From Prorocentrum cordatum (Eukaryota > Sar > Dinophyceae > Prorocentrales > Prorocentraceae), in NCBI GenBank assembly GCA_963575745.1, contig CAUYUJ010014565.1:16584-80583 (forward strand): a DNA stretch of 64,000 bases, given 5' to 3'. The notes beneath the pieces are model-generated. The model ran no database searches. It saw nothing but the letters and a program-made list of their open reading frames with translations, and was not told where the DNA came from. The translations under genes and the position numbers were made by a program. Of the stretch, positions 7,087 to 61,752 are shown piece after piece (the stretch's first letter is position 1; every line of letters starts with the position of its first letter).

Positions 7087-7431
7087 TTAAGCTGGGCACG
7101 TCCCTCTACAGGAGGAGCATTCAAAAATAGGAAAGAATAGTCGGGGGACGATTTCCCGATTGTTTCTTACAGTCAACGCGCTTAGTAAGGACGCGCGCCT
7201 TCATCTAGGGTGCCCTTGTGTCCTTGCCTCTGAGGCTCGTCCTTGCCATTATCACTGGTCGCCCGCCGCCCTAGAAAACCCGACTTCGGCCTCCGAGGGT
7301 CTTGCGTCCTTCTCACCCGTCCTCAATCTACGTTTTGACTGTAGTATTCTCGAGTCTGGTTCACATTTTTTTTGGTTTTAATAATATTTTTTCGCCCGAG
7401 AGCCGCCTGTAGGAGGACACGCCCGACCCAA
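7087..7431. mobile_element. Family A element A3 containing B1
   Basis: The left end TTAAGCTGGGCACGTCC and right end GGACACGCCCGACCCAA define a family A element. It is about 175 bases longer than other copies because mariner-like element B1 (7170-7341) sits inside it, so B inserted after A. Confidence 0.75.
7170..7341 (+). mobile_element. Family B, Tc1/mariner-like MITE, copy B1
   Basis: A ~172-bp element. Its ends are CAGTCAA and TTGACTG, flanked on both sides by TA, the target duplication typical of Tc1/mariner transposons. The inside carries AGTAAGGACGCGCGCC on the left and GGGTCTTGCGTCCTT on the right. Three other copies (34.6, 53.0 and 57.1 kb) have the same design. No transposase frame is present, so it is non-autonomous. 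Confidence 0.85.
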
Positions 7432-17839: not shown

Positions 17840-18600
17840 AACATTATTTATTCTAAAGAATAATTATTGTTGGGCCCCCTGGTGCGCGCCCCCCCTGCGC
17901 CGCCTAGGCCGCAGCTACATTTTCATCATTTTCGTGAGGAAGCCTCAGAAAAGAGGGTGTGTACAGGATCCGGTTGTTTTGTTGTAATCCGCTTTCCCTT
18001 GCAAAAAACAATAGAAAATGACATTTCTTGTTCTAATATAATCAAATTTCAAGAATCCCTTGCAAAAAATAAGGTAAAGTGGACATTCGCGCGCGCAAGA
18101 CGAAATCCTTCCAAAACCTTAGTGTTCGCAGCGATTTTAACATAAAAACATCAAAAAACCAATGGTTTTTCAACAAAAAATTGTCAAAATCTCATCCCGC
18201 GCGCTCTTGCGGATTCGTAGGAAACCCAACACTTTTTAAACATTTCTGTCAAACGGGCTTTTGCGAGCAACTTTTTCGAACTTCTGCGACAACGGTTGCG
18301 CACCTGCCAGGGCCATCATCCCTGTCAAATAATACCATGCGGGACACATTCGTTTTTTCTTCGCGCGCGCACGCCGTCGTCGTCGGCCGCGGGGCCCTGA
18401 ATAGTAGCCACGGTCGTCCGCATGCCACGAAGTGAAGTGTCCGAACGTCATAGGGCGGGAAGCTGGGTGTGGGTGGTGGCGAAGAGTCGTTTGGAAATTT
18501 GGTAGAGCTTGAACCGGCCCCCCCACAAAGTGGGGGTATTGCCCGCCTCCTATGAAAACCCTGGCACTGGTGAGAACGGAGTGTCCCCACGTGCTAGTAA
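17840..18600 (+). repeat. 761-bp unit K1
   Basis: First of four near-identical units. Each begins AACATTATTTATTCTAAAG and ends GTGCTAGTAATT or an equivalent. Each is preceded by TTG repeats: long before K1 and K4, short before K2 and K3. Three GCGCGCGC words sit at fixed places inside. The right half (CATGCCACGAAGTGAAGTG to CCTATGAAAACCCTGG) is the best conserved. Short frames of 96 and 113 codons on the minus strand repeat in three units only because the DNA does. Confidence 0.85.
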
Positions 18601-18606
18601 TTGTTG

Positions 18607-19364
18607 AACATTATTACTTCTAAAGAATAATTATTGTTGGGACCCCTGGTGCACGACCCCCCTCCAAAACCTAGGCCGCAGCTACATTTTCATCATTTTT
18701 CGCGAAAGCTTCAGAAAAGTGGATTGGTCCGGATCCGGTTGTTTTGTTGTAATCCGTTTTCCCTTGCAAAAAACACTATAAAATGAAAATTCTTGTTCTT
18801 ACTTGATCAAATTGCAAGAATCCCTTGCAAAAAATAAGGTAAAGTGGACATTCGTGCGCGCAAGACGAAATCCTTCCAAAACCTTAGGTTTCGTAACGAT
18901 TTTAACATAAAAACATCAAAAACCCAATGGTTTTTTAATAAAAAATTGTCAAAATGTTCTTCCGCGCGCTCTTGCGGATTCGTAGGAAAACCAACACTTT
19001 TTAAACATTTCTGTCAAACGGGCTTTTGCGAGCAACTTTTTCGAACTTCTGCGACAACGGTTGCGCACCTGCCAGGGCCATCATCCCTGTCAAATAATAC
19101 CATGCGGGACACATTCGTTTTTTCTTCGCGCGCGCACGCCGTCGTCGTCGGCCGCGGGGCCCTGAATAGTAGCCACGGTCGTCCGCATGCCACGAAGTGA
19201 AGTGTCCGAACGTCATAGGGCGGGAAGCTGGGTGTGGGTGGTGGCGAAGAGTCGTTTGGAAATTTGGTAGAGCTTGAACCGGCCCCCCCACAAAGTGGGG
19301 GTATTGCCCGCCTCCTATGAAAACCCTGGCACTGGTGAGAACGGAGTGTCCCCACGTGCTAGTA

Positions 19365-19365
<1 letters not shown>
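18607..19365 (+). repeat. 761-bp unit K2
   Basis: Second unit. It differs from K1 by scattered substitutions in the left half (for example GGGACCCCTGGTGCACG) and is nearly identical in the right half. Only TTGTTG separates it from K1. Confidence 0.85.
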
Positions 19366-19430
<65 letters not shown>

Positions 19431-19433
19431 GAA
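19366..19433. repeat. (GTT)n microsatellite after K2
   Basis: About 68 bases of TTG repeats. They are followed by a fifth, truncated unit start (AACAATTATTATTGTTGG, about 19447-19465), which then breaks into unrelated GC-rich sequence. Confidence 0.9.
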
Positions 19434-19644
19434 CCTTAATTACTAAACAATTATTATTGTTGGACCCCCTATATTCGCCCTGGCGCTCTCGCCGAGGCGC
19501 CGGCCGCATTTCCTCTGAAATTGAGGCTCACGCTCAGGCGTTTTGGGGTTCCGCCAAAACCGGCCCCCCAACAACAACAACGCTCCGGCTCGAGACTTCC
19601 TCCTTTTTTACTCGGGCTCGGTGCTCTTGCTCGCCGCCGAGAGC

Positions 19645-20180
19645 GGCTCCCGGGCCGGACGCCCGGGTCGGCGCCCGAGCCGGCGCCCGGGCGCCGGAAA
19701 ATCGAGTTCCGAGGCGGCGCCGAAAAAAGGCCATTCCAATACACATTTTTCTTTCGAAAATGCTGAATTTCTGCTTCCGGCGCCCGGGAGGGAGGCCGTC
19801 CGGGCCGATTCCGGAGCTCGGGCCGGCACCCGGCCCGGCTCCCGGGCCGGACGCCCGGGTCGGCGCCCGAGCCGGCGCCCGGGCGCCAGAAAATCGAGTT
19901 CCGAGGCGGCGCCGAAAAAAGGCCATTCCAATACACATTTTTCTTTCGAAAATGCTGAATTTCTGCTTCCGGCGCCCGGGAAGGCCGTCCGGGCCGATTC
20001 CGGAGCTCGGGCCGGCACCCGGCCCGGCGCCCGGCACCCGGGCCCGGCTCCCGGGCCGGACGCCCGGGCAGTTCCGATCGCGCCGAAAAGAGGCCATTCC
20101 AATACACATTTTTCTTTCGAAAATGCTGAATTTCTGCTTGCGGCGCCCGGGAAGCCGTCCTGGGCCGATTCTGGAGCGGC
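19645..20180. repeat. Three tandem copies, ~192/171-bp period
   Basis: The anchor ACACATTTTTCTTTCG occurs at 19741, 19933 and 20104. Spacings of 192 and 171 are both multiples of three, so frames stay open on both strands. GC-rich halves (GGCGCCCGGGCGCC palindromes) alternate with the AT-rich anchor. No protein family is recognised and both strands are equally open, so I treat it as a tandem repeat. Confidence 0.75.
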
Positions 20181-20820
20181 TGTGGGCCGGACGCCCGAGC
20201 CGGCGCCCGTACGTGGTGCTTCTCTGCTTCTGGCGCCTGCGCAGCTTCCCGAGCCGCTTCTGGAACCATATCTGGGCCGGTCCAGCGATAGGTTTCCTGG
20301 ATGTGCTGAACCATCCAACTTTTTGAGACTTCTGCGTCTCAAGGATAGGGAGAGAAGACATTAAAGGAGGATCAAAAAGCAACGTCGCTATGAACGCTTG
20401 GCTGCCACAAGCCAGTTCTACTTACTTGGACTACTACTACTACTACCGTTACCACTACTACTAGTGCTACAGCCGCAACAACAATATCATCGACTGCTGC
20501 TACTACAACTACTCATCCTTCCTCCCCCTCCTCCCCCTCCCTTCTCCTCCTCCCCCTCCCTAGCTCTCTCATCTCCCCCTCCTCTTCCTCTTCCTCTCCC
20601 TCTGAGATGCGGGGCATGCGCAAGGCGATTGCGAAGGCGATGTGCCGTCCGAGCTATGGATGTTGAAGTTCCTCGGAAGAGGTGGTGGCCAAACCTTCTT
20701 GGGCGGGATATCTGGGTGAGGGAATATCGGATCCCGCATGCCAGAAAAATCCCCCATGATGGGGTGTGTTATCCAGATGGATGCATGTGTCATGTGGAAG
20801 CATGGCGCATGAGGGTAAAA
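20181..20820. other. Spacer with CTA microsatellite, no gene seen
   Basis: 20430-20470 holds CTA/CTACTAC repeats and 20515-20600 is CT-rich. 20640-20815 is unique and lacks coding signature. Confidence 0.5.
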
Positions 20821-20838
20821 TGATTGTTGTTGTTGTTG

Positions 20839-21596
20839 AACATTATTTATTCTAAAGAATAATTATTGTTGGGCCCCCTGGTGCGCGCCCCCCCTGCGCC
20901 GCCTAGGCCGCAGCTACATTTTCATCATTTTCGTGAGGAAGCCTCAGAAAAGAGGGTGTGTACAGGATCCGGTTGTTTTGTTGTAATCCGCTTTCCCTTG
21001 CAAAAAACAATAGAAAATGACATTTCTTGTTCTAATATAATCAAATTTCAAGAATCCCTTGCAAAAAATAAGGTAAAGTGGACATTCGCGCGCGCAAGAC
21101 GAAATCCTTCCAAAACTTAGTGTTCGGAGCGATTTTAACATAAAAACATCAAAAAACCAATGGTTTTTCAACAAAAAATGTCAAAATCTCATCCCGCGCG
21201 CTCTTGCGGATTCGTAGGAAACCCAACACTTTTTAAACATTTCTGTCAAACGGGCTTTTGCGAGCAACTTTTTCGAACTTCTGCGACAACGGTTGCGCAC
21301 CTGCCAGGGCCATCATCCCTGTCAAATAATACCATGCGGGACACATTCGTTTTTTCTTCGCGCGCGCACGCCGTCGTCGTCGGCCGCGGGGCCCTGAATA
21401 GTAGCCACGGTCGTCCGCATGCCACGAAGTGAAGTGTCCGAACGTCATAGGGCGGGAAGCTGGGTGTGGGTGGTGGCGAAGAGTCGTTTGGAAATTTGGT
21501 AGAGCTTGAACCGGCCCCCCCACAAAGTGGGGGTATTGCCCGCCTCCTATGAAAACCCTGGCACTGGTGAGAACGGAGTGTCCCCACGTGCTAGTA

Positions 21597-21599
<3 letters not shown>
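20839..21599 (+). repeat. 761-bp unit K3
   Basis: Almost identical to K1, including the GTGAGGAAGCCTCAGAAAAG block. It is therefore closer to K1 than to its neighbour K4. Confidence 0.85.
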
Positions 21600-21659
<60 letters not shown>

Positions 21660-21660
21660 G
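21600..21660. repeat. (GTT)n linker between K3 and K4
   Basis: About 60 bases of TTG repeats joining two 761-bp units. Confidence 0.95.
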
Positions 21661-22422
21661 AACATTATTTCTTCTAAAGAATAATTATTGTTGGGGCCCC
21701 TGGTGCACGACCCCCCCCCGCCGCGCCTAGGCCGCAGCCACATTTTCATCATTTTCGTGAGGAAGTCTCAGGCAAAACGGGGTATACCAGATCCGGTTGT
21801 TTTGTTGACGCCCGCTTTCCCTTGCTATAAAATGAAATCTCTGTTCTAACATAACCAAACTTCAAGAATCCTTTGCAAAAAATGACACGAAGTGCACACT
21901 CGCGCGCGCAAGATGAAATCCTTCCAAAACCTTAGTTTTCGTAGCGATTTTAACATAAAAACATGAAAAACCCAATGGTTTTTCAAAAAAAAAAGTTTCA
22001 AACATTCATCTTGCGCGCTCTTGCGGATTTCTGAGGAAACCCAATATTTTTTCAACATTTCTGTCAAACGGGCTCTTGCGAGCAACTTTTTCACGTGCTT
22101 CGAACTTCTGCAACAACGGTTGCGCGCATGCCAGGGCCATCATCCCTGTCAAATAATACCATATTGGACACATTCGTTTTTTCTTCGCGCGCGCACGCCG
22201 TCGTCGTCGGCCGCGGGGCCCTGAATAGTAGCCACGGTCGTCCGCATGCCACGAAGTGAAGTGTCCGAACGTCATAGGGCGGGAAGCTGGGTGTGGGTGG
22301 TGGCGAAGAGTCGTTTGGAAATTTGGTAGAGCTTGAACCGGCCCCCCCACAAAGTGGGGGTATTGCCCGCCTCCTATGAAAACCCTGGCACTGGTGAGAA
22401 CGGAGTGTCCCCAGTCTTAAAT
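21661..22422 (+). repeat. 762-bp unit K4, most diverged
   Basis: Fourth unit, with more substitutions in the left half and an altered end (CCCCAGTCTTAAATG instead of CCCCACGTGCTAG). A (GTT)n run follows at 22424-22473. Confidence 0.8.
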
Positions 22423-33980: not shown

Positions 33981-34639
33981 AGCCAAGACAGCTTCCAGGT
34001 CGGCGCAAGACGGCCCCAAGAGGCCCGAAGAGGACCCCTGCGACGCCAACCTATGTCGAACATATTTGGAACATCCCTTGTTTTTCTGTATTTCCTTTTT
34101 TTTTCGATTCGCTCATAAACGTGATGCCCATACGCGCGACCCTTCGACATTGAAGGTTGACGGTTATAACGTCCAAGGAGATCCGAACATGCAACTGTAC
34201 ATATATATGTATATGTGTATGTATATTCCATTCCGACGCGGGAAGTTCTGCAGTGAAAGAACATGCGTTCCTTCCAAAGAATCGCCCGCGAGGATCAGCA
34301 CATTCCGCACGCAGCCGCTGTATGACACTATGTATAACTTTCATTTTTTATACCTAATTTCATCTTTTGTATTTGCAGGTGCATCACCTATTAATAAGAT
34401 TATATTTGTTTTTTTGTTGGCCTCATCGCCGCACACGCACTGCGCCGTCAACACAAATACAGACACCAATATTTGAGGCCTTCGCTGCTCCGATGGCCTG
34501 CGCACTTTGGCAGTCCCATGCTGCCCTCCTGTCCAAAGCCACGTTTGTGGCATGATCGGCGTGCGTATTGAAAGACCTGCTGTGCCCCTCGATGAAGTCA
34601 GCCGTGTCCAACCGAGGTCGGAACACACCATCCAACATA
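33981..34639. other. No gene seen; AT-rich with TA repeats
   Basis: Lower GC than its surroundings, with a TATATGTATATGTGTATG run near 34200. Short frames give no recognisable protein. Confidence 0.45.
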
Positions 34640-34812
34640 CAGTCAGCGCGCCTAGTAAGGACGCGCGCCTTCATCTAGGGTACCCTGGTGTCCTTGCACC
34701 TGCGGCTCGTCCTTTGCCGCTTTCACGGGTCGCCCGCCGCACGAAAACTCCCGACTTCGGCTTCCAAGGGTCTTGCGTCCTTGCCACCCGTCCTCAATAC
34801 ACGTTTTGGCTG
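34640..34812 (+). mobile_element. Family B mariner-like MITE, copy B2
   Basis: CAGTCAG...GGCTG ends with TA on both sides (34638-34639 and 34813-34814). The internal blocks are identical in order to B1. Confidence 0.85.
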
Positions 34813-34814
34813 TA

Positions 34815-35425
34815 TATACAAGCACACAGGCCACCCTGACACATGGAGGTCTCAAGCTATCATTCGTCAGTTTCGCGCCACCATCAAAACTGTGCTCCAG
34901 GCACTGGCAGTCCGTTTGGATCCACACTCTCTTTCCGCCCTCGTCACAAGGCAGCTCCTAGGGGTTGTCTGGCATTCCGCAGGCCAGCGTCTAGCTGCAC
35001 AGTTGTCCGCGCATCGTAGGCCGTCGCAGTGTCCGCGGCAGGAATGGGATGACCCCGTTGTCTACGCAGTTCTTTTTCGAAATTCGAGAGCGCTCCCATC
35101 CATTATTCTTTTGTGCAGCATCTACTGAGTTTGTCGTGCCAATGTCTATGTGCTGTTTTTCTCCCTCGCCTTTTCGCTCCCGAAGAGCTCCTAGAGGCCT
35201 CCAGATGGCTTCCGAAAGGGCCCAAAGGGAACCCACTGGACGGGCCCTGGAGGGGCCCAAGACGGCCCCAGATACCCCCGAGAAGGCGGACCCCAAGAAG
35301 GCCCGACGTCGATCCAAATTCTTGAAAGGCCAGCAGCGTCAAGTGTTCGTAGAGCGCCAAGACTGCCCTAATAGGCCCCCGGGGCTTCCAGAGGGGCCCC
35401 CAAGATGCTCCCGCGCGCCACCTCT
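34815..35425. other. No recognisable gene upstream of the RGG gene
   Basis: 35160-35400 has repeated GGGGCCCxxAGAxGG-like words. A frame across it is open but without G/C third-position bias. Confidence 0.4.
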
Positions 35426-52989: not shown

Positions 52990-53370
52990 TGAGGTGACGA
53001 CTTAGGGGGGGGGGATATCATGGCGGGGGCCCTGATACAGTCAAAAACCCTAATAAGGACGCGCGACTTTGCTCAGGGTACCCTTGCGTCCTTGCTCTTT
53101 CTTGCTCTTGCGTCCTTGAGGTTTTCGTCGTCCGCCGCCCCAAAAATCCCAACTTCGGCTTCCAAGGGTCTTGCGTCCTTACCGCGCATCCTTGTTAGGG
53201 TTTTTGATTGTATCTCCCCAGATTTCATGGCGCCTCCTAATCCACTACGTCCCCGGCCCTGCCTTGGGCCGCGCACATGGATGGTGCCGCCGGCCATGAT
53301 CTGCGACCCCCCCCTTCTTGGACGCCCCCCTTCTTCGACGCCCCCGACTGGGGTACGACATCGCCCAACG
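52990..53370 (+). mobile_element. Family J element J3, interrupted by B3
   Basis: GAGGTGACGACTTAGGGGGG and CATGGCGGGGGCCCTGAT lie left, and CCCCAGATTTCATGGCGCC and GGGCCGCGCACATGG lie right, of a B element. J1 and J2 are continuous at this point. Confidence 0.75.
53038..53210 (+). mobile_element. Family B mariner-like MITE, copy B3
   Basis: CAGTCAAAAACCC to GGGTTTTTGATTG with TA on both sides (53036-53037 and 53211-53212). Its ends form the longest inverted repeat of the four copies. Confidence 0.88.
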
Positions 53371-55061: not shown

Positions 55062-55216
55062 AAGGACAAAGTCATGCTTTTTGCCATGTGCGGCCTCTTG
55101 GGGCCCTCGCCGGGCCTCGGGAGCGCGCAAAAAGGATTCAGCATGAGAAACCGGCCCCGGGGAAGGGGTCGAGACCTCTGGGGGTCGACGCTATGACAAA
55201 CTCATGACATCGGGGG
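55062..55216 (+). mobile_element. Family E element, copy E9
   Basis: Starts CAAGGACAAAGTCATGC and ends AAACTCATGACATCGGGGG, with GGGGCCCTCGCCGGGCCTCG and GGTCGAGACCTCTGGGGG between. It lies ~110 bases upstream of the first exon recognised in the membrane-protein gene. Confidence 0.7.
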
Positions 55217-55324
55217 TCTGCGTTGTTCGGCCTTGAGAGGTAGGGGGGGGTAGTTTTCGGCCTCGGGGGGACTGGGTCGGGGCCCCAGGATCGTCACGGG
55301 ACTGCCCAGGACGAACAGCAGAGC

Positions 55325-55529
55325 ATGCCCCGGGCCTCGACAGCACTGCGAGCCCTCGCGCACCGAGCGTGGGACCCTGGCGGGGCCGAGCCAGGACCCG
55401 CGCGGGCGGATGTACCGTGGGCGCCCCCTCTCCCCCGGAGGAGCCTGATCGGCGTCATCTCGCGCAAGAACCCCGACTTCTGGGACGACTTCTTCGCCGG
55501 CCCCCGCGGCCTGGACCCCGAGCTCGGGC
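55325..55529 (+). CDS. Membrane-protein gene, exon 1 (or first visible exon)
   Basis: The frame ends SRKNPDFWDDFFAGPRGLDP-ELG, with strongly G/C third positions from about 55440. An ATG at 55325 starts it, but the frame is open further left, so the true 5' end is uncertain and an upstream exon is possible. It joins exon 2 in phase: one base (C) before the GT at 55530-55531 plus CG after the AG at 55697-55698 gives Pro. Confidence 0.65.
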
Positions 55530-55698
55530 GTTGCTCGAAGTGCCCCTGACCCAAGGTGCCCCCCCCCTGGGTGTCCGAGGAGCCCCCCCCCCTCCCCACG
55601 GCCTCCAGAGCACCCTCCACGAGGCCCAGGGGGCCCCAGGGGGGCTCCCAAAGGGGGCGAAACGCTGGGGGCACTTTGGGCCAGGGAGTGACCTTCAG
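55530..55698 (+). other. Intron 1 (GT-AG), a family Z inverted-repeat element
   Basis: 169 bases, GTTGCTCGAAGTGCCCC to GGGAGTGACCTTCAG. The two ends are imperfect inverted repeats: CCCTGACCCAAGGTGCCCC pairs with GGGGCACTTTGGGCCAGGG. A copy of the whole element lies at 22672-22830, outside any gene I can see. Confidence 0.75.
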
Positions 55699-57064
55699 CG
55701 ACCCCCGACGAGCGCATGCCCCAGAGCGTGGCCGACTCCGTGGCCCTGCGCCGCTCCAGCACGGCGCGGCTCCGCCCGCCGGCGGGCACCAGCGGCCGCC
55801 TCTCCCCCGCCGCCCCCCCGCCGGCCGCCGCCCCCGCGCCGCCGCGCAGCTCGCAGGCCGGGCCTGTGCCCGGGGAGCCGGCCCTGGACGGCCTGGACGT
55901 GGTGCGCCAGGTGGCACAGCTGGACAAGACGCGCTGCACGTACCGCGGGTACGTCTGCAGCTGCTGCGTGGTCACCGTGTGCACCTCCATGGCGACGGTG
56001 CTGCTGTGGTCCAGCATCGGCGTGGGCGGCCGGGTCGTGGGCGTGGGGCACGAGGTCGTCCAGTGGCTTGAGGACCACGACTTCCTGAGGGTGTACACGC
56101 TGGGCGCCGGCAGCCTGATCCTCGCCGCGCTCCTGCTGCTCGACTTCTTCAGCCCGCCCCACCTCCCGGGCTCCACGCGCAAGCTCTGGGAGGGCGACAC
56201 CTGCGTGGGGCCCTCCCTCTTCGCCCTCGCGGTCGTCTGCTTCATCGCGTCTGGCTTCCTCATGGCCAAGGACCTCCCCAGCCTCCCCCTGCTCCTCACG
56301 GTGGCCCTCTCGCCCATGAGCGTGGCCGCGATCCGGGAGGCCACGCGGCCTGCCCGGATCTCCGAGCACACGAAGGACGCCGTGGTGCTGTCTGGGAATC
56401 TGGCCGCACAGATGGCGCTGCTCGCGGCCATCTCGGAGAGAGAGGACGACCTCATCAACTTCTTTCGCGGGGGCAGGGCGGGCTTTGTGCTGAGTTTCAT
56501 AATGAGCTTCGCCTGGTGGCTGTACTGGGTGGTATCCACGCACCAGGTCACGCACTACGTCACGCAGGAGGGGCTGGACGAGGGAGAAATGGAGCTGGAA
56601 TACTTTCTCTGGGCTGCGCCAGTGATCGTCGGCTGCTCCAACATGGTCTTTGGATTCTTCATGGGCCTCCGCCTCCTTATGCACGACACATACCTGGTCA
56701 CCGATAGGCACAGGAACCAGCTCATCGCCTGCGCGATGAACGAGTGGAAGAGTCCCGAGATGTCGAAGAAGGCCAAAAGCATGGTCATGAAAACGATGCG
56801 TGGTCGCAGACGAAGGAAGATTAGTGAGGAGGAAAGGGAGCGCCAGGCGTCCGAGCAGTACACGGTGGCCGTGGAACAGATGTCGAAGATGGTGAAGGCG
56901 ACCTGTTGCGTATTTTTTTTTGTCTTCGGCATCTTCTACATCGCCGGGCAGCTCCTGTACACCGACATGAAGATGGCCGCCACGTTCGTGGCGCTGGTCG
57001 TGGTCTTATTTGTCACCTTCATCTCGGAGAAGGGCCAGTTCAGACAGCGGCGGATCCGCTCAAG
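55699..57064 (+). CDS. Membrane-protein gene, exon 2 (multi-pass region)
   Basis: 455 codons, almost all ending in G or C. A Pro/Ala/Arg-rich head (TPDERMPQSVADSVALRRSS) is followed by many hydrophobic segments, including CCVVTVCTSMATVLLW, LGAGSLILAALLLLDFF, LFALAVVCFIASGFLM, AGFVLSFIMSFAWWLYWVV, WAAPVIVGCSNMVFGFFMG, CCVFFFVFGIFYIAGQLL and ATFVALVVVLFVTFI. A basic loop (MRGRRRRKISEEERERQ) lies between the last groups. I do not recognise this part as a named family. It ends RQRRIRS + AG before GTCGGT at 57065. Confidence 0.85.
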
Positions 57065-57336
57065 GTCGGTCCTCCGAGTTCTTCTGGGGTCTATCCTGGC
57101 TCGTCCTTCGATGCGTACAGACAACGCGCCTAGTAAGGACGCGCGCCTTCATCTGGGGGGCCCTCGTGTTCTTGCCTCTGCGGCCCGTCCTTTGCCGTTT
57201 TCATTGGTCGCCCGCCGCCCAAACAATCCCAACTTCGGCCTCCAAGGGTCTTGCGTCCTTGCCACCCGTCCTTGATGTACGTTTGGACTGCATCCCGCCG
57301 TGGCGACGAGGGGCCTCCGGGAGGCCACACGAGAAG
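57065..57336 (+). other. Intron 2 (GT-AG) carrying mariner-like element B4
   Basis: Donor AAG/GTCGG and acceptor GAGAAG/G give an in-phase joint RIRSR-KAPGLAAAVWTD. Element B4 (57118-57290, next entry) makes up nearly two thirds of the intron. Confidence 0.8.
57118..57290 (+). mobile_element. Family B mariner-like MITE, copy B4
   Basis: CAGACAACGCGCC to GTTTGGACTG, with TA on the left (57116-57117) and CA on the right (57291-57292, a changed TA). It lies in the same orientation as the gene. Confidence 0.85.
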
Positions 57337-57499
57337 GAAAGCGCCTGGGTTGGCCGCCGCCGTCTGGACGGACCCCCCTCCGACCATCGTGTTCATGTAC
57401 AAGTCCTTCAAGCGCATCATGGCGGACATGGGCAGGCGCATGGCCGAGCACCCCGTGGGCAAGATGGTGCGCGGCGTGGCGGCCGCGAGCTGGGCGCGG
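57337..57499 (+). CDS. Membrane-protein gene, exon 3
   Basis: Reads KAPGLAAAVWTDPPPTIVFM, then YKSFKRIMADMGRRMAEHPV and GKMVRGVAAASWAR. It is a cytosolic-looking amphipathic segment with strong third-position bias. The right boundary is not certain: a GCG word at 57500-57502 recurs at 57717-57719, so the exact splice point can slide within it. Confidence 0.75.
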
Positions 57500-57716
57500 G
57501 CGCTGCTCTTCTGGGGGAGAGAAAGAGTGACATACACATGACAACTCGGAGGTCCGCGCGGATTTCTCGGATCGGCGCTGGACCCCCCTCCCTGGCGCGC
57601 GGAGCGTGCCAGGGGCGGCGCCGGAGGCGCCGCCGGGGGGCCCCAGCGCCGATCCGAGAAATCCGTGCGGACCTCCGAGTTTTTAAGCTTATGCCACTTT
57701 TTGTTCCCCTATCCTC
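57500..57716 (+). other. Intron 3, a reversed family C element
   Basis: Its body is a hairpin with 37-base arms (57545-57581 and 57643-57679, one mismatch) around the family C core. Read on the minus strand it matches intron 5: ATAAGCTTAAAAACTCGG corresponds to ATAAGCATAAAAACTTGT. Removing 57500-57716 joins SWAR to AFLPLVPLVV in frame, but that junction has no AG. A GA-AG choice (57519-57687) is also in frame, giving FWGTYATFCSPILAFL. A transcript is needed to decide. Confidence 0.6.
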
Positions 57717-57925
57717 GCGTTCCTGCCCCTGGTCCCCCTGGTCGTGGCGGCGTCGTGGCTGAACCAGCGGGTCCGGCGGGCGCGGCGGCTCTACAAGCGC
57801 ATCCCCGTGGAGCCGGACGCCTCCGACGAGCCCGTGCCGGCGCGCAAGGCCCTCCGGGCCGCCCGCGCGGGGCCGAGGCGTCGGTGGAGCGCGCCGCACA
57901 GCGCCGACGCATCGGCGGCGGGGCT
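57717..57925 (+). CDS. Membrane-protein gene, exon 4 (right end uncertain)
   Basis: FLPLVPLVVAASWLNQRVRR begins with a hydrophobic segment and continues ARRLYKRIPVEPDASDEPVP in a charged stretch. The third-position bias fades after about 57860. The donor was not identified; GCAAG/GC at 57847 and GGCG/GT at 57882 are candidates. Family A element A6 begins at 57932. Confidence 0.6.
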
Positions 57926-57931
57926 CCACGT

Positions 57932-58114
57932 TTGAGTCGGGCCTGTCCCCCTACAGGGGGATTTGCGACGAAAAATAAAACAATACCCCCCAACATAGTC
58001 GAGCAATAATCCAAAACTAGTCCGGGAATCATTTTTTGAGCATGGGGGTATTCTGGGGGATATTTTTTGGTTTTTCGTCGAAAACCCCCCCTGTAGGGGA
58101 CACGCCCGACATAA
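57932..58114. mobile_element. Family A element, copy A6
   Basis: TTGAGTCGGGCCTGTCCCCC to GGGACACGCCCGACATAA. CTCCACGT is repeated exactly on both sides (57924-57931 and 58115-58122). Confidence 0.88.
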
Positions 58115-58322
58115 CTCCACGTGGCGCCCGTTTTTTTTTTTTCATCCCGAGGTTGCATCGCTGATGGAGCGCGCTCCTCCGACCCCGTCCGCGGCAGGCT
58201 CGCGTCGCGTCGACGGGCGGCGGCCCCGCCGCGGGCTTGCGAGGTTGAGTGCCGCAGATGGCCCAGGATCGGCCTATATATGGAACGATCTGGCGATCGA
58301 AATGCCGCCGATCATTCAAGGT

Positions 58323-58508
58323 TGAAGTCGGGCGTGTCCCATTACAGGGGGATTTTCGGCGAAAAATAAAAGATACCCCAAAAATATGCAGAAATAGTCC
58401 AAAAATAGTATGGGGATTATTTTTGGAGTATTTTTTGACCTTTTTGGAGTATTTTGTTTTTATATTTTTAGTCGAAAATCCCCTTGTAGGGGGACACGCC
58501 CGACATAA
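58323..58508. mobile_element. Family A element, copy A7, inside repeat AA
   Basis: TGAAGTCGGGCGTGTCCC to GGGGACACGCCCGACATAA, flanked by TTCAAGGT on both sides (58315-58322 and 58509-58516). The empty paralogue at 15772-15790 reads GTTCAAGGCTGAACGATCC without interruption. Confidence 0.88.
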
Positions 58509-58556
58509 TTCAAGGTTGAACGATCCACGTGGTGTCAGAAGCCAACTCAGGGGTCG

Positions 58557-58735
58557 TCGTGACGCGAGCCTGCCGTGCTCGAGCCCCGCCCGGGCGGCCC
58601 TTCCGGAGGAGTGGTCCAGCTGCATGTCCAGCCTGGCCGCCCTGCCGCTGACGCCGCGGGTGTACTTCGCGCTGGCCCACGTCTGGGAGAACTGGCCGTG
58701 GCTGAAGATCTTCCCGCTCGTGTACGTGTTCTGCG
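58557..58735 (+). CDS. Membrane-protein gene, exon 5
   Basis: Reads EEWSSCMSSLAALPLTPRVY, then FALAHVWENWPWLKIFPLVY and VFCG. Third positions are almost all G or C. The left edge is uncertain (an AG near 58567 is possible). The right edge is after G58735, giving Gly with GC of exon 6. Confidence 0.75.
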
Positions 58736-58943
58736 GCGCTCGGGGGAGAAACACAAGCAGCCATAAGCATAAAAACTTGTTTGGCGCTCCGCGCTGCTCT
58801 CTTGGATCCGCGCCCGTGCCCCCCCCCCCCGCCTCAGGCAGCGCCTCCGGCGCCGCCCCTGGCGCGCTCCGCGCGCCAGGGAGGGGGGTCCGGCGCGGAT
58901 CCACGAATCCGCGCGGGACGCCAAGAGTTTTGTCTTCTTCTAG
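58736..58943 (+). other. Intron 5 (GC-AG), a family C element
   Basis: 208 bases from GCGCTCGGGGGAGAAACAC to TTTTGTCTTCTTCTAG. Exon joint VFC-G-VYLCYAV is in frame. The GGCG word stands at both ends, like a short target duplication. The core GGCGCCGCCCCTGGCGCGC and arms GGCGCTCCGCGC / GCGCGGGACGCC make a hairpin. GC donors are known in dinoflagellate genes. Confidence 0.78.
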
Positions 58944-61489
58944 GCGTGTACCTGTGCTACGCCGTGTGCCCCGTGCTGCTCAACGTGCTGCTCGCCTGGC
59001 TCACCAAGGTGCTCTCCGCCTGGCCCTTCGAGATCATCATCCTCGCCGTGTTCTTCACGGGCATCGGCGCCTTCCTCCTGCCGTGCGTGCCCGGCCTGAC
59101 GGTGTACATCTTCGGAGGCCTCGTGCTGTCCAACACGTGCCCCTGGGGCGCGGACCCCGACGCGCGGTTCTGGGTCGGGGCCCTCGTGAACGTCGCGGTG
59201 AGCTGGTCGCTGAAGCTGGTGGCCTGCGCCGTGCAGCAGAAGTGCATCGGCGAGCTGCTCGGGAAGAGCCTGTCGATACGCAGGGCCGTGGGCGTGCACA
59301 AGCCCATGATCCGGTGCATCGAGGCCGAGCTGAGGCAGCCCGGCTGGACGGTCGGCAAAGTCGCCATTCTCTGCGGCGGGCCAGATTGGCCCACCTCAGT
59401 GCTGGCGGGCGTGCTGCGGCTGTCGCTGTGGCAGTGCGAGCTGGGCACGGTGCCCATCATCTTCTTCGTCATCCCGTGCGCCCTCACTGGCTCCTTCTAC
59501 CTGAAGAAGGGCTCGAGCCCGATCTGGAGCAGGGCGGCCAACCTGATGACGCTCTTCTCGCTCTTGGTCAGCCTGATGCTGTGGATGCTCGCGCTGTGGG
59601 CCATCCAGGGGCGCCTGGAGAAGGACCACTTCGAGCTTGAGCGGCCTCTGCCTCAGAACGCAGAGCTCGAGTGGCTGGACTTTCGGGATGCAGAGGTGGC
59701 CCGCAGGAGCGCCATAGTCTGGGCGGACGTGCCGCGGCTAACCCGCTGGACGTTCGCCCTCGGCGCTGTCGTTCATGTGCTGGTGTGCCACGTGCTGTGC
59801 TGGATGAACGAGCGCCTCTTCGGCAGCTTCAACGTGTCCGACGACATCGACTCGCTGAAGTGGTACGGGGCCGACGGGGGACTCTTCAACGTGTGGTCGG
59901 TGGCCACGCTCGCGGTGTACGGCGTCGCCTTCCTCGCCTACTTCCAGTTCAGCGCGTGGCACAGGCTGCGCCAGTCGGGGGCCCGGGCGAGCGCCGTCCG
60001 CGAGGTCGAGGCGCAAAAGGAGGCCTGGCTGCAGGACTACGACGAGCGCTGCCGGGCGGCGCTCGGCGGCTGCGGCGGGGTCCCTCCGCCCTCCTCCTGC
60101 CACCATCTCCTCCTCCTTCTCCTCCTCCTTCTCCTCCTCTTCTTCCTCCTCCTCCTGCTCCGCCCTCCTCCTCCTCCTCCTCCTGCCACCATCTCCTCCT
60201 ACTCTTCCTCCTCCTCCTCCTCCTCCTCCTCCTCTTCTTCTTGCTCCTCCTCCTCCTCCTCGTCCGCTCTCCTCCTCCTCCTCCGCCCTCCTCCTCCTCC
60301 TCCTCCTCCTCCTCCTCCTCCTCCTCCTCCTCCTCCTCCTCCTCCTCGTCCGCCCTCCTCCTCCTCCTCCTCCTCCTCCTCCTCCTCCTCCGCCCTCCTC
60401 CTCCTTCTCCTCCTCCTCCCTTCCTCCGCCTCCTCCTCCTCCTCCTCCTCCTCCTCCTCCTCCTCCTCCTCCTCCTCCTCCTCCTCCTCCTCCTCCTCCT
60501 CCTCCTCGTCCTCCTCCTCCTCCTCCTCCTCCTCCTCCTCCTCCTCCTCCTCCTCCTCCTCCTCCTCCTCCTCGGCACCCGACGCCCCGCCGCCGGAGCG
60601 CCACCAGCCCGGAGGCTTCGGCGGCGACGCGGCGTGCGACGGCGGCCTCGCCCCGCCAGCCACCTGCAGGGCCGCGGAGGACGGCGCCGCCTCGCCCCGC
60701 ACGCCCCCGCTCGAGCGGCGCCGGAGCTCGAGCGGCGCGGGCAACCTGGGCAGCCCCAGCGGCCTCTGCTCCGACGAAGACGCCCCGCCCCGCGGGGGCG
60801 CGCCAGGCCTGGCCTTCGCGGGCCGCGCGGCCGGGGGAGGCTCGGCGGGCGCGCGCGGGGAGGGCGGCGGTGCCCAGCAGGAGGAGGGCGAGCGCGCCCG
60901 GGCGTCGCAGGGCTCCGCCGCTGCGCCCGCGTGGGCCGCCGGCGACAGCGAGCCCATCGCCCTGGCCGCCGGCGAGCCGTCCGCCTGGGCGCGCGGCGGG
61001 GCCGCGGCGGCGGCCGTCGCGGGCATGCCCCACCTGGGCACGCTGTCGGTCGGCACTCGCGGGGCCGGGCTGGCCGACCCAGGCCCCGCCCCGCTGGGCG
61101 GGCGGAGCCGTGGCGTCGGGGCGGCCCACGGGGACAGCAGCGCGCTGGCAGCTCACGCCGGAGGCGTGCAGTTTGCCGCGGCAGCCCCCGAGTCTGCCAC
61201 TCAACCTCTGCACGAGTCCTCGCAGGGGTGCCCCGGCACGCCGGCGCAGGCTCGTCCGGTGCTGCGCCTGGTGGCACGTTGGTGCGGCAGCGGCAACGGC
61301 TCGCCGGCCTCGGGCAAGGACTCCCCCCTTCCCGTGGGCGGGAAGCGTATGTCCGTGTCGACAGCCTCGTGGCGCAGACTCCCGGCCTCGACCCAGGGCA
61401 CACTGGGCGGCTCTGCGCGGCCGCCCCGCGCAGAACGCAGCCCTGAGGGAAGGCTCCCCCTCACCGCTGCTGATGGAATGCCCCGCTAG
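58944..61489 (+). CDS. Membrane-protein gene, last exon: VTT-like domain and Ser-rich tail
   Basis: The exon begins VYLCYAVCPVLLNVLLAWLT. ILAVFFTGIGAFLLPCVPGL, TVYIFGGLVLSN and LKLVACAVQQKCIGELLG resemble the VTT (DedA/TVP38/TMEM64, SNARE-associated) domain, which in other eukaryotes acts in lipid scrambling and membrane traffic. Further hydrophobic segments follow (VPIIFFVIPCALTGSFYL, LFSLLVSLMLWMLALWAI, WTFALGAVVHVLVCHVLCW, WSVATLAVYGVAFLAYFQF). From about 60080 to 60575 the frame crosses a CCT array (Leu, Pro, then long Ser runs), then a disordered Ala/Gly/Ser tail with ERRRSSSGAG and CSDEDAPP up to TAG at 61487. The domain call is by motif only. The function is inferred. Confidence 0.75.
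60090..60575. repeat. (CCT)n array inside the last exon
   Basis: About 485 bases of CCT with CGC, TTC and GTC interruptions. The reading frame stays open throughout, shifting from Leu to Pro to Ser runs as single bases slip. The bias of true coding sequence resumes at APDAPPPERHQPGGFGGD. Copy number probably varies between individuals. Confidence 0.9.
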
Positions 61490-61562
61490 TATAGTTATTT
61501 TTCTCGTCCCACCCACGGCCCCAAATTTCCTACGAATGGGCAGGTTCGAAGGCCCTGTGAGC

Positions 61563-61752
61563 CCAGGCCCCCGACGTCGTGATTAGTTTCGCAAAGTCGA
61601 CCCCCAGACGTCTGGACCCTTTCCCTGGGACCCCTTTCTCGTACCGAGTCATTCCTTGACGGTCCCGAGGCCCGGCGAGGGCCCCCAGAGGCCAGAAATG
61701 TGGAAAAGCCTCGACGTCGTGACTTCCCCACAACGCGAGGAGCTCTGGGTGT
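61563..61752 (-). mobile_element. Family E element, copy E10
   Basis: Reversed copy starting CCCAGGCCCCCGACGTCGTG, 75 bases after the stop of the membrane-protein gene. It ends near CACAACGCGAGGAGCTC. GGCCCTGTGAG on the left resembles GGCCCTCCGAG right of it, a possible duplication. Confidence 0.7.

Follow-up and report, generated by a model that had tools for sequence, protein, structure and literature searches.

The window analysed here is a stretch of 64,000 nt (positions 16,584-80,583) from contig CAUYUJ010014565.1 of the red-tide dinoflagellate Prorocentrum cordatum, and all coordinates below are positions in the window. At about 55325-61489 on the forward strand it harbors a gene for a multi-pass membrane protein, for which 36 homologs were found by protein search. 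Introns 1, 2, 3 and 5 of this gene each consist of one inverted-repeat element inserted into coding sequence, and they are introners, a kind of intron already known in dinoflagellates (PMC11453091; PMC10666404, citing Roy et al. 2023). The introners themselves are real and of that known kind; their boundaries are new for it. Comparison with homologous proteins and with paralogs indicates that introns 2 and 3 can be removed only with non-canonical ends, that is, without GT, GC or GA at the donor and AG at the acceptor. Taken as a whole, the data are probably best explained by insertions of miniature inverted-repeat transposable elements (MITEs) that became introns, either canonical or removed at a direct repeat devoid of GT/GC/GA-AG, and the comparisons suggest that the alga also removes introns by a route not yet described for it.

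Inverted-repeat elements as whole introns

The element of intron 1 (family Z, 55524-55708, 185 bp, ends TCGGG...CCCGA) is enclosed by a perfect 5-bp duplication, CGAGC, at 55519-55523 and 55709-55713. Intron 2 holds an element of 360 bp (57024-57383, ends TCGGAG...CTCCGA) between TCATC (57019-57023) and CCATC (57384-57388), where no equivalent cut gives a canonical pair, while the family C element of intron 3 (57512-57711, 200 bp, ends TGGGGG...CCCCTA) lies between TCTTC (57507-57511) and TCCTC (57712-57716). In intron 5, a family C-related element of 203 bp (58740-58942, ends TCGGGG...TTCTA) is flanked by GGCGC (58735-58739) and GGCGT (58943-58947). All four elements start with T(C/G)GG, end with C(G/T)A and are accompanied by 5-bp duplications, and because of these common features they may share one transposase type. 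A preliminary description, made from the sequence of the window alone, had traced all five introns to several unrelated families; the origin from elements stands for introns 1, 2, 3 and 5, whereas intron 4 has several possible limits, and the word unrelated is too strong for whole-intron elements with shared end motifs and 5-bp duplications.

The assignment of introns 3 and 5 to one family in opposite orientations was borne out (57554-57693 against 58916-58762, 77%), with other family C copies near 3.9, 38.4 and 47.0 kb of the window. The copy proposed for intron 1 at 22.67 kb does exist but is weak: it aligns at 71% over 97 bp (E 3e-9 unfiltered) and gives no hit at E 1e-6 with the low-complexity filter. 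The same description had placed a mariner-like repeat, B4, in intron 2, and for B4 (matched over 57116-57293) three further window copies were indeed found (7168-7341, 34638-34815 and 53036-53194; 74-86% identity). It had missed that the whole intron is an element with B4 nested inside, which sets B4 aside as the maker of intron 2; B4 is not named among the features of intron 2 in the paralog Q described below. For intron 4, the inverted-repeat elements A6 and A7 were recovered with window copies near 42.6, 48.0 and 62.9-63.1 kb. A copy claimed at 15.7 kb was not, the only match in 15.0-16.5 kb (E up to 1) being 21 bp at 16.3 kb, and the separate repeat named AA (58118-58315) has no window copy at E 1e-6. 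Both roles foreseen for the elements are therefore represented, whole introns by 1, 2, 3 and 5 and later cargo by B4, A6 and A7. Intron bases are repeated more often than chance would give: at E 1e-6, 48.5% of intron bases, 0% of exon bases and 27% of the whole window have a copy elsewhere in it, as do 132 of its 319 tiles of 200 bp.

A search of the genome (4.13 Gb, 21,875 contigs) returned, at first look, 2022 candidates for the intron 3 element and 2674 for that of intron 5, of which 40 each were scored. Family C ends, read in 30 genomic loci, are TAGGGGAAC...GTTCCCCTA, and the target duplication measures 5 bp: flanks match at length 5 in 74%, against 26% of random pairs, and remain close to chance at lengths 2-4 and 6-10 (one row of this tally, L001, was one base off register and was later set by hand). 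Most of the genomic copies examined lie outside recognisable coding sequence. As introns, family C and its close relatives occur in introns 3 and 5, in a second paralog, R, in genes for a KH protein (L041), mitoferrin (L047) and an ADP/ATP carrier (L072), and in L083. The element ends coincide with the exon joints in these cases as well as at introns 1 and 2.

The layout of the gene, with exon joints set by alignment of the query and 11 of the 36 homologs, is as follows.

55325-55519, forward strand: exon 1 (proposed, ATG at 55325), an open frame joining exon 2 in frame
55519-55713, forward strand: intron 1, family Z element with perfect 5-bp duplication; removal of 190 nt keeps the frame
55714-57020, forward strand: exon 2, homology from about 55863; 82.9% DNA identity to paralog Q over 1011 bp
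57019-57388, forward strand: intron 2, element; 365 nt removed with 5/5 templates, identical cut in 3/5
57116-57292, forward strand: B4, mariner-like, nested in the intron 2 element; first letters TACAG, last letters CTGCA
57386-57506, forward strand: exon 3, from homolog alignment and paralog R
57507-57716, forward strand: intron 3, family C element, non-canonical; removal of 205 nt gives the length of paralogs Q and R
57717-57815, forward strand: exon 4 (right limit uncertain), from homolog alignment
57816-58608, forward strand: intron 4, one of several possible canonical GA-AG solutions (template P0002, canonical mode)
57924-58122, forward strand: A6 (element 57932-58114), cargo of intron 4, 8-bp duplications CTCCACGT
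58315-58516, forward strand: A7 (element 58323-58508), cargo of intron 4, 8-bp duplications TTCAAGGT
58609-58735, forward strand: exon 5, 89.6% DNA identity to paralog Q
58735-58947, forward strand: intron 5, family C-related element; 208 nt removed with 5/5 templates
58944-61489, forward strand: exon 6, without introns in the window gene

Exon 1 is without homology support, and blastn of paralog Q gave no match to it. The C-terminal part of the protein is weakly VTT-like (Pfam VTT domain PF09335, E 0.036, 15 bits, below the cut-off of 33.9), and the paralog P0032 bears the name TVP38. Within exon 6, about 480 bases at 60100-60580 are CTC-type repeats read as Leu/Pro/Ser tracts, which are absent from the annotated paralog protein P0001; this stretch may be an expansion or a piece of an unrecognised intron. 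An intergenic repeat (GGGGAAGGGGTCGAGACCTCTGGGGGTCGACG...) with many window copies flanks the gene in opposite orientations (61559-61751 and 55076-55223), and elsewhere, at 17966-22398, the window contains tandem-like 300-bp repeats, of which four copies are 95-100% identical in parts, with TGT runs between them.

Empty sites and splice joints

Two paralogs, obtained by a protein search of the genome, document the empty sites. Paralog R (C19386) is uninterrupted at introns 2, 3 and 5, where it reads FFITFIVFAYKSF, WARAFLFAFLP and TFCGVYVCYA, respectively; paralog Q (C13811) carries the same element at the same place as intron 2 and is devoid of introns 3 and 5. Both run continuously through the linker that holds intron 4 in the window gene. 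Conversely, the stretch corresponding to exon 6 contains three introns in Q and at least five in R, and R has its own family C copy within the codons TTC ATC, which the window gene and Q have intact. The introns thus appear to have been gained element by element since the three genes separated (dS 0.30-0.52). Gain is preferred over loss because target duplications mark insertions, although loss in one copy is possible case by case. The joined coding sequences of the three genes contain no stops, and dN/dS amounts to 0.26-0.27 for window-Q, 0.37 for window-R and 0.42 for Q-R (one window-Q segment in the wrong frame was left out). Against Q and R, the window gene shows neither stops nor frameshifts in 393-442 upstream codons and 405 downstream ones, which, together with dN/dS, speaks for removal of the introns, short of proof.

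Joints were placed by our own spliced protein-to-DNA alignment, with introns either positioned freely or confined to GT/GC/GA...AG. Five homologs and the two paralogs served to test the joints at introns 2, 3 and 5. Free alignment removed 365 nt at intron 2 with all five templates. At intron 3, a non-canonical cut of 202 nt was obtained with four of five templates and one of 205 nt from Q and R; the former was set aside on the paralog lengths, and a GC-AG form (57489-57687) was rejected because it would drop the conserved SWARALL segment. Intron 5, by contrast, has a canonical spliced form, GC-AG 58736-58943, and a cut permitting GC-AG was chosen with 4/5 templates in free alignment. Intron 1 offers two in-frame alternatives, GA-AG 55520-55712, at the price of one residue, and GT-AG 55530-55698. 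Forcing canonical sites lowered the alignment score by 80-143 for the window gene (5 templates), 63-122 for mitoferrin (6) and 34-43 for a citrate carrier (5).

Altogether, 12 non-canonical joints are firm by homology: window introns 2 and 3, four in mitoferrin, one in the citrate carrier, one further in Q, two in R, and one each in L083 and L085, with the non-canonical intron 2 of Q counted once together with that of the window gene. In each case the nearest canonical alternative adds, removes or replaces at least four residues or breaks a conserved motif. Mitoferrin, which was found via a related element copy, has five introns, recovered by length in the free run with 6/6 templates for a, c and d, 4/6 for b and 1/6 for the fifth; at the joint of the fifth, all 25 homologs shown carry, like the exact join, KTRLQ or KTKLQ and then TQ (or RTRLQ). 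The citrate carrier possesses a canonical-capable intron beside its non-canonical one. L007 was discarded as a coding insertion for its unclear frame. Whether element ends coincide with splice sites has a divided answer: many elements provide GT/GC/GA-AG through their duplication, but the 12 joints fit no canonical site.

AG|G is the dinoflagellate pattern, and it was present at all 23 surveyed introns that fit GT/GC/GA-AG. For twelve of these no splice rule had been imposed (AG|G in 12/12), which shows that the method recovers expected sites when present; the other 11 were placed by rule or by hand (Qg, Qz, citrate 1, two in the ADP/ATP carrier, KH3 and five in an uncoupling-protein-like gene). 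Exact removal would give GT/GC/GA-AG by chance in 6 of the 48 readings obtained when 24 genomic family C copies are taken on both strands. The survey was small: for L066-L071 and L074 it extended no further than a scan for coding stretches, L086 and L087 did not enter it, and L073 and parts of L062-L064, Q and R gave no definite introns. In L063, a KH-domain gene, repeated KH-like units are accompanied by several GT/GA-AG introns at direct repeats, one of them from a family C relative. The matches listed contained no exact duplicate of a host protein that might have stood for a transcript.

Proposed cutting at the direct repeat and competing explanations

According to the proposed mechanism, short non-autonomous DNA transposons with terminal inverted repeats would insert into coding exons and duplicate a 5-bp target, and the RNA would then lose the whole element and one copy of the duplication, leaving the protein unchanged; we infer this removal from the conserved reading frames. 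If G|G(T/C/A) and AG|G come with the duplication, as in intron 5, the U2 spliceosome could use the GT/GC/GA-AG sites of dinoflagellates. If they do not (introns 2 and 3, mitoferrin, the citrate carrier and several paralogs), the RNA would still be cut at the direct repeat, the inverted repeats pairing so as to bring both repeat copies together. The cutter may be a spliceosome with relaxed requirements, or else a distinct activity that is guided by the hairpin and favours repeats with ATC.

A strict direct repeat of at least 3 bases flanks 22/23 canonical and 9/12 non-canonical introns, compared with 66% and 20% of the respective random pairs; for the canonical class, repeat length is weak evidence because all its members share AG|G. 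ATC or ATG lies in the repeat of 7/12 non-canonical and 0/23 canonical introns (Fisher 1e-4), against a background of 1/24 genomic family C copies and 7.1% of coding 5-mers. In the predicted RNA, the ends pair at 27 or more of 45 positions in seven of eight short non-canonical introns. Complementarity to U1 has medians of 3 and 4 of 9, a partly circular test. The genome yields 35 matches to U1 snRNA, 14 of them over the cut-off, and seven of eight copies read have the normal 5' end ACUUACCUG. One copy (L089, G000:C563:32900-33090) is situated between two 14-bp direct repeats (CGGACAAGCTGTAG), in the manner of a retroposed snRNA. The PROCN domain of Prp8 was met only as pieces of 28-37 residues (G000:C21409, G000:C3763), some more than 8 kb apart, and this core splicing gene thus appears to be split into tiny exons.

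Several observations weigh against cutting at the repeat. The strict repeat has only 2 bases in 3 of the 12 cases (intron 3, R216 and L083a), and the ATC enrichment was noticed and counted in one sample, for which reason an independent sample is needed. Non-canonical introns do not surpass canonical ones in end pairing (medians 32 versus 26, P 0.27), and three folded members of the non-canonical class (Qa, R216 and Md) have none at all, while the pyrimidine content before the 3' end is alike in both; pairing and pyrimidine content hence do not separate the machinery of the two classes. The joint in L085 rests on one of three templates, and the length of intron 3 is 202 nt by the homologs and 205 by the paralogs. 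Two candidates were also dropped from the firm set, mitoferrin c because of a GC-AG alternative that costs three extra residues and the aspartic protease L050 because its GC-AG option costs only two.

These dropped cases bear on the alternative that only ordinary introners are involved, which the U2 spliceosome removes at GT/GC/GA-AG throughout, the non-canonical joints being alignment errors and the mRNA differing by a few residues. Intron 1, mitoferrin c and L050 all have canonical options at a cost of 1-3 residues, 23 joints fit canonical sites anyway, and in Aureococcus canonical sites inside the element are described as altering protein length (PMC9860276). We nevertheless consider it improbable, since none of the 12 firm joints has a canonical option within 60 nt that spares the conserved segments, where even the least costly one takes out, inserts or exchanges residues: intron 2 would lose 4 residues, the family C insertion of R would cost 5 and Qa 9, intron 2 of the citrate carrier would gain 9, and the canonical route of mitoferrin a replaces the K of PVDTIKTRMQ. 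More improbable still is that the non-canonical insertions stay unspliced and the genes are broken, as pseudogenes or unfixed alleles. In favour of dead or dying copies, several paralogs of the window gene exist, and family C copies at 94-96% identity betray recent activity; on the other hand, the window gene aligned with Q and R reveals no stops or frameshifts at dN/dS 0.26-0.37, the two diverged genes with intron 2, that of the window and Q (dS 0.30-0.47), both have it in non-canonical form, and mitoferrin keeps its exons with five such insertions. Removal by the minor spliceosome (AT-AC, U12-type) is scarcely conceivable: several introns do start with AT if cut before ATC, but none of the listed 5' ends is ATATCC and the 3' ends vary; AT-AC introns were set aside.

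Relation to known introns and implications

Like the introners described from dinoflagellates and other eukaryotes (Gozashti et al. 2022, PMC9860276; Roy et al. 2023, as cited in PMC11453091 and PMC10666404), the elements reported here are repeated as whole introns at many places and have terminal inverted repeats and short target duplications that partly supply the splice sites; the splice sites in those descriptions were taken from annotations, whereas about a third of the joints here lack GT/GC/GA-AG. In the same species, Dougan et al. 2023 (PMC10666404) reported introns enriched in introner elements, which inverted and direct repeats define, and their gene models recognise GT, GC and GA donors; the relevant parts of the main text do not describe non-canonical joints. 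There is also a likeness to the parasite Amoebophrya, strains A25 and A120 (Farhat et al. 2021, PMC7789003), in which introns with non-GT-AG ends carry inverted repeats, direct repeats of 3-5 nt over the boundaries and a hairpin able to join the exon ends, and have spread in the manner of transposons. Those introns are backed by RNA-seq and U1 was not detected there, in contrast to the present joints, which were placed by homology, the U1 present in this genome and the ATC-favouring repeats. Boundaries outside GT/GC/GA-AG at 12 joints, together with direct repeats over both boundaries, are the Amoebophrya-type features found in P. cordatum.

Euglenids and diplonemids belong to another eukaryotic supergroup. 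Their nonconventional introns have a structure that draws the intron ends together (PMC4770533, PMC6221363, PMC12621601), and here such pairing occurs in seven of eight short non-canonical introns and in canonical ones too. An animal, the tunicate Fritillaria borealis, likewise has numerous introns that break the GT/AG rule although the 5' end of its U1 is conserved, and all its intron classes are reported to depend on the U2-type spliceosome (PMC13326754). No report of such non-canonical introns in a free-living dinoflagellate was found in the literature covered, which left out most subscription papers and supplements.

A stronger claim can be drawn from homology and the paralogs: P. cordatum, a free-living photosynthetic dinoflagellate, might possess a second large class of introns, transposon-made hairpins with a repeat favouring (C)ATC and with neither a GT/GC/GA donor nor an AG acceptor, cut exactly at the repeat by a distinct activity or a strongly relaxed spliceosome and missed by annotation. 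We regard this as possible, with the balance tipped slightly against it. Published RNA-seq of the strain exists (PMC10666404).

If the joints are true, introns would be able to spread without bringing or finding splice signals, which would answer in part how invasions of introns are tolerated. Gene models of the 4.1-Gb genome would, moreover, be cut at such introns, as is seen in paralog Q, whose published protein P0001 starts with MDADASW; two non-canonical introns and a GT-AG intron precede that start, and the upstream half of the gene is missing from the model.

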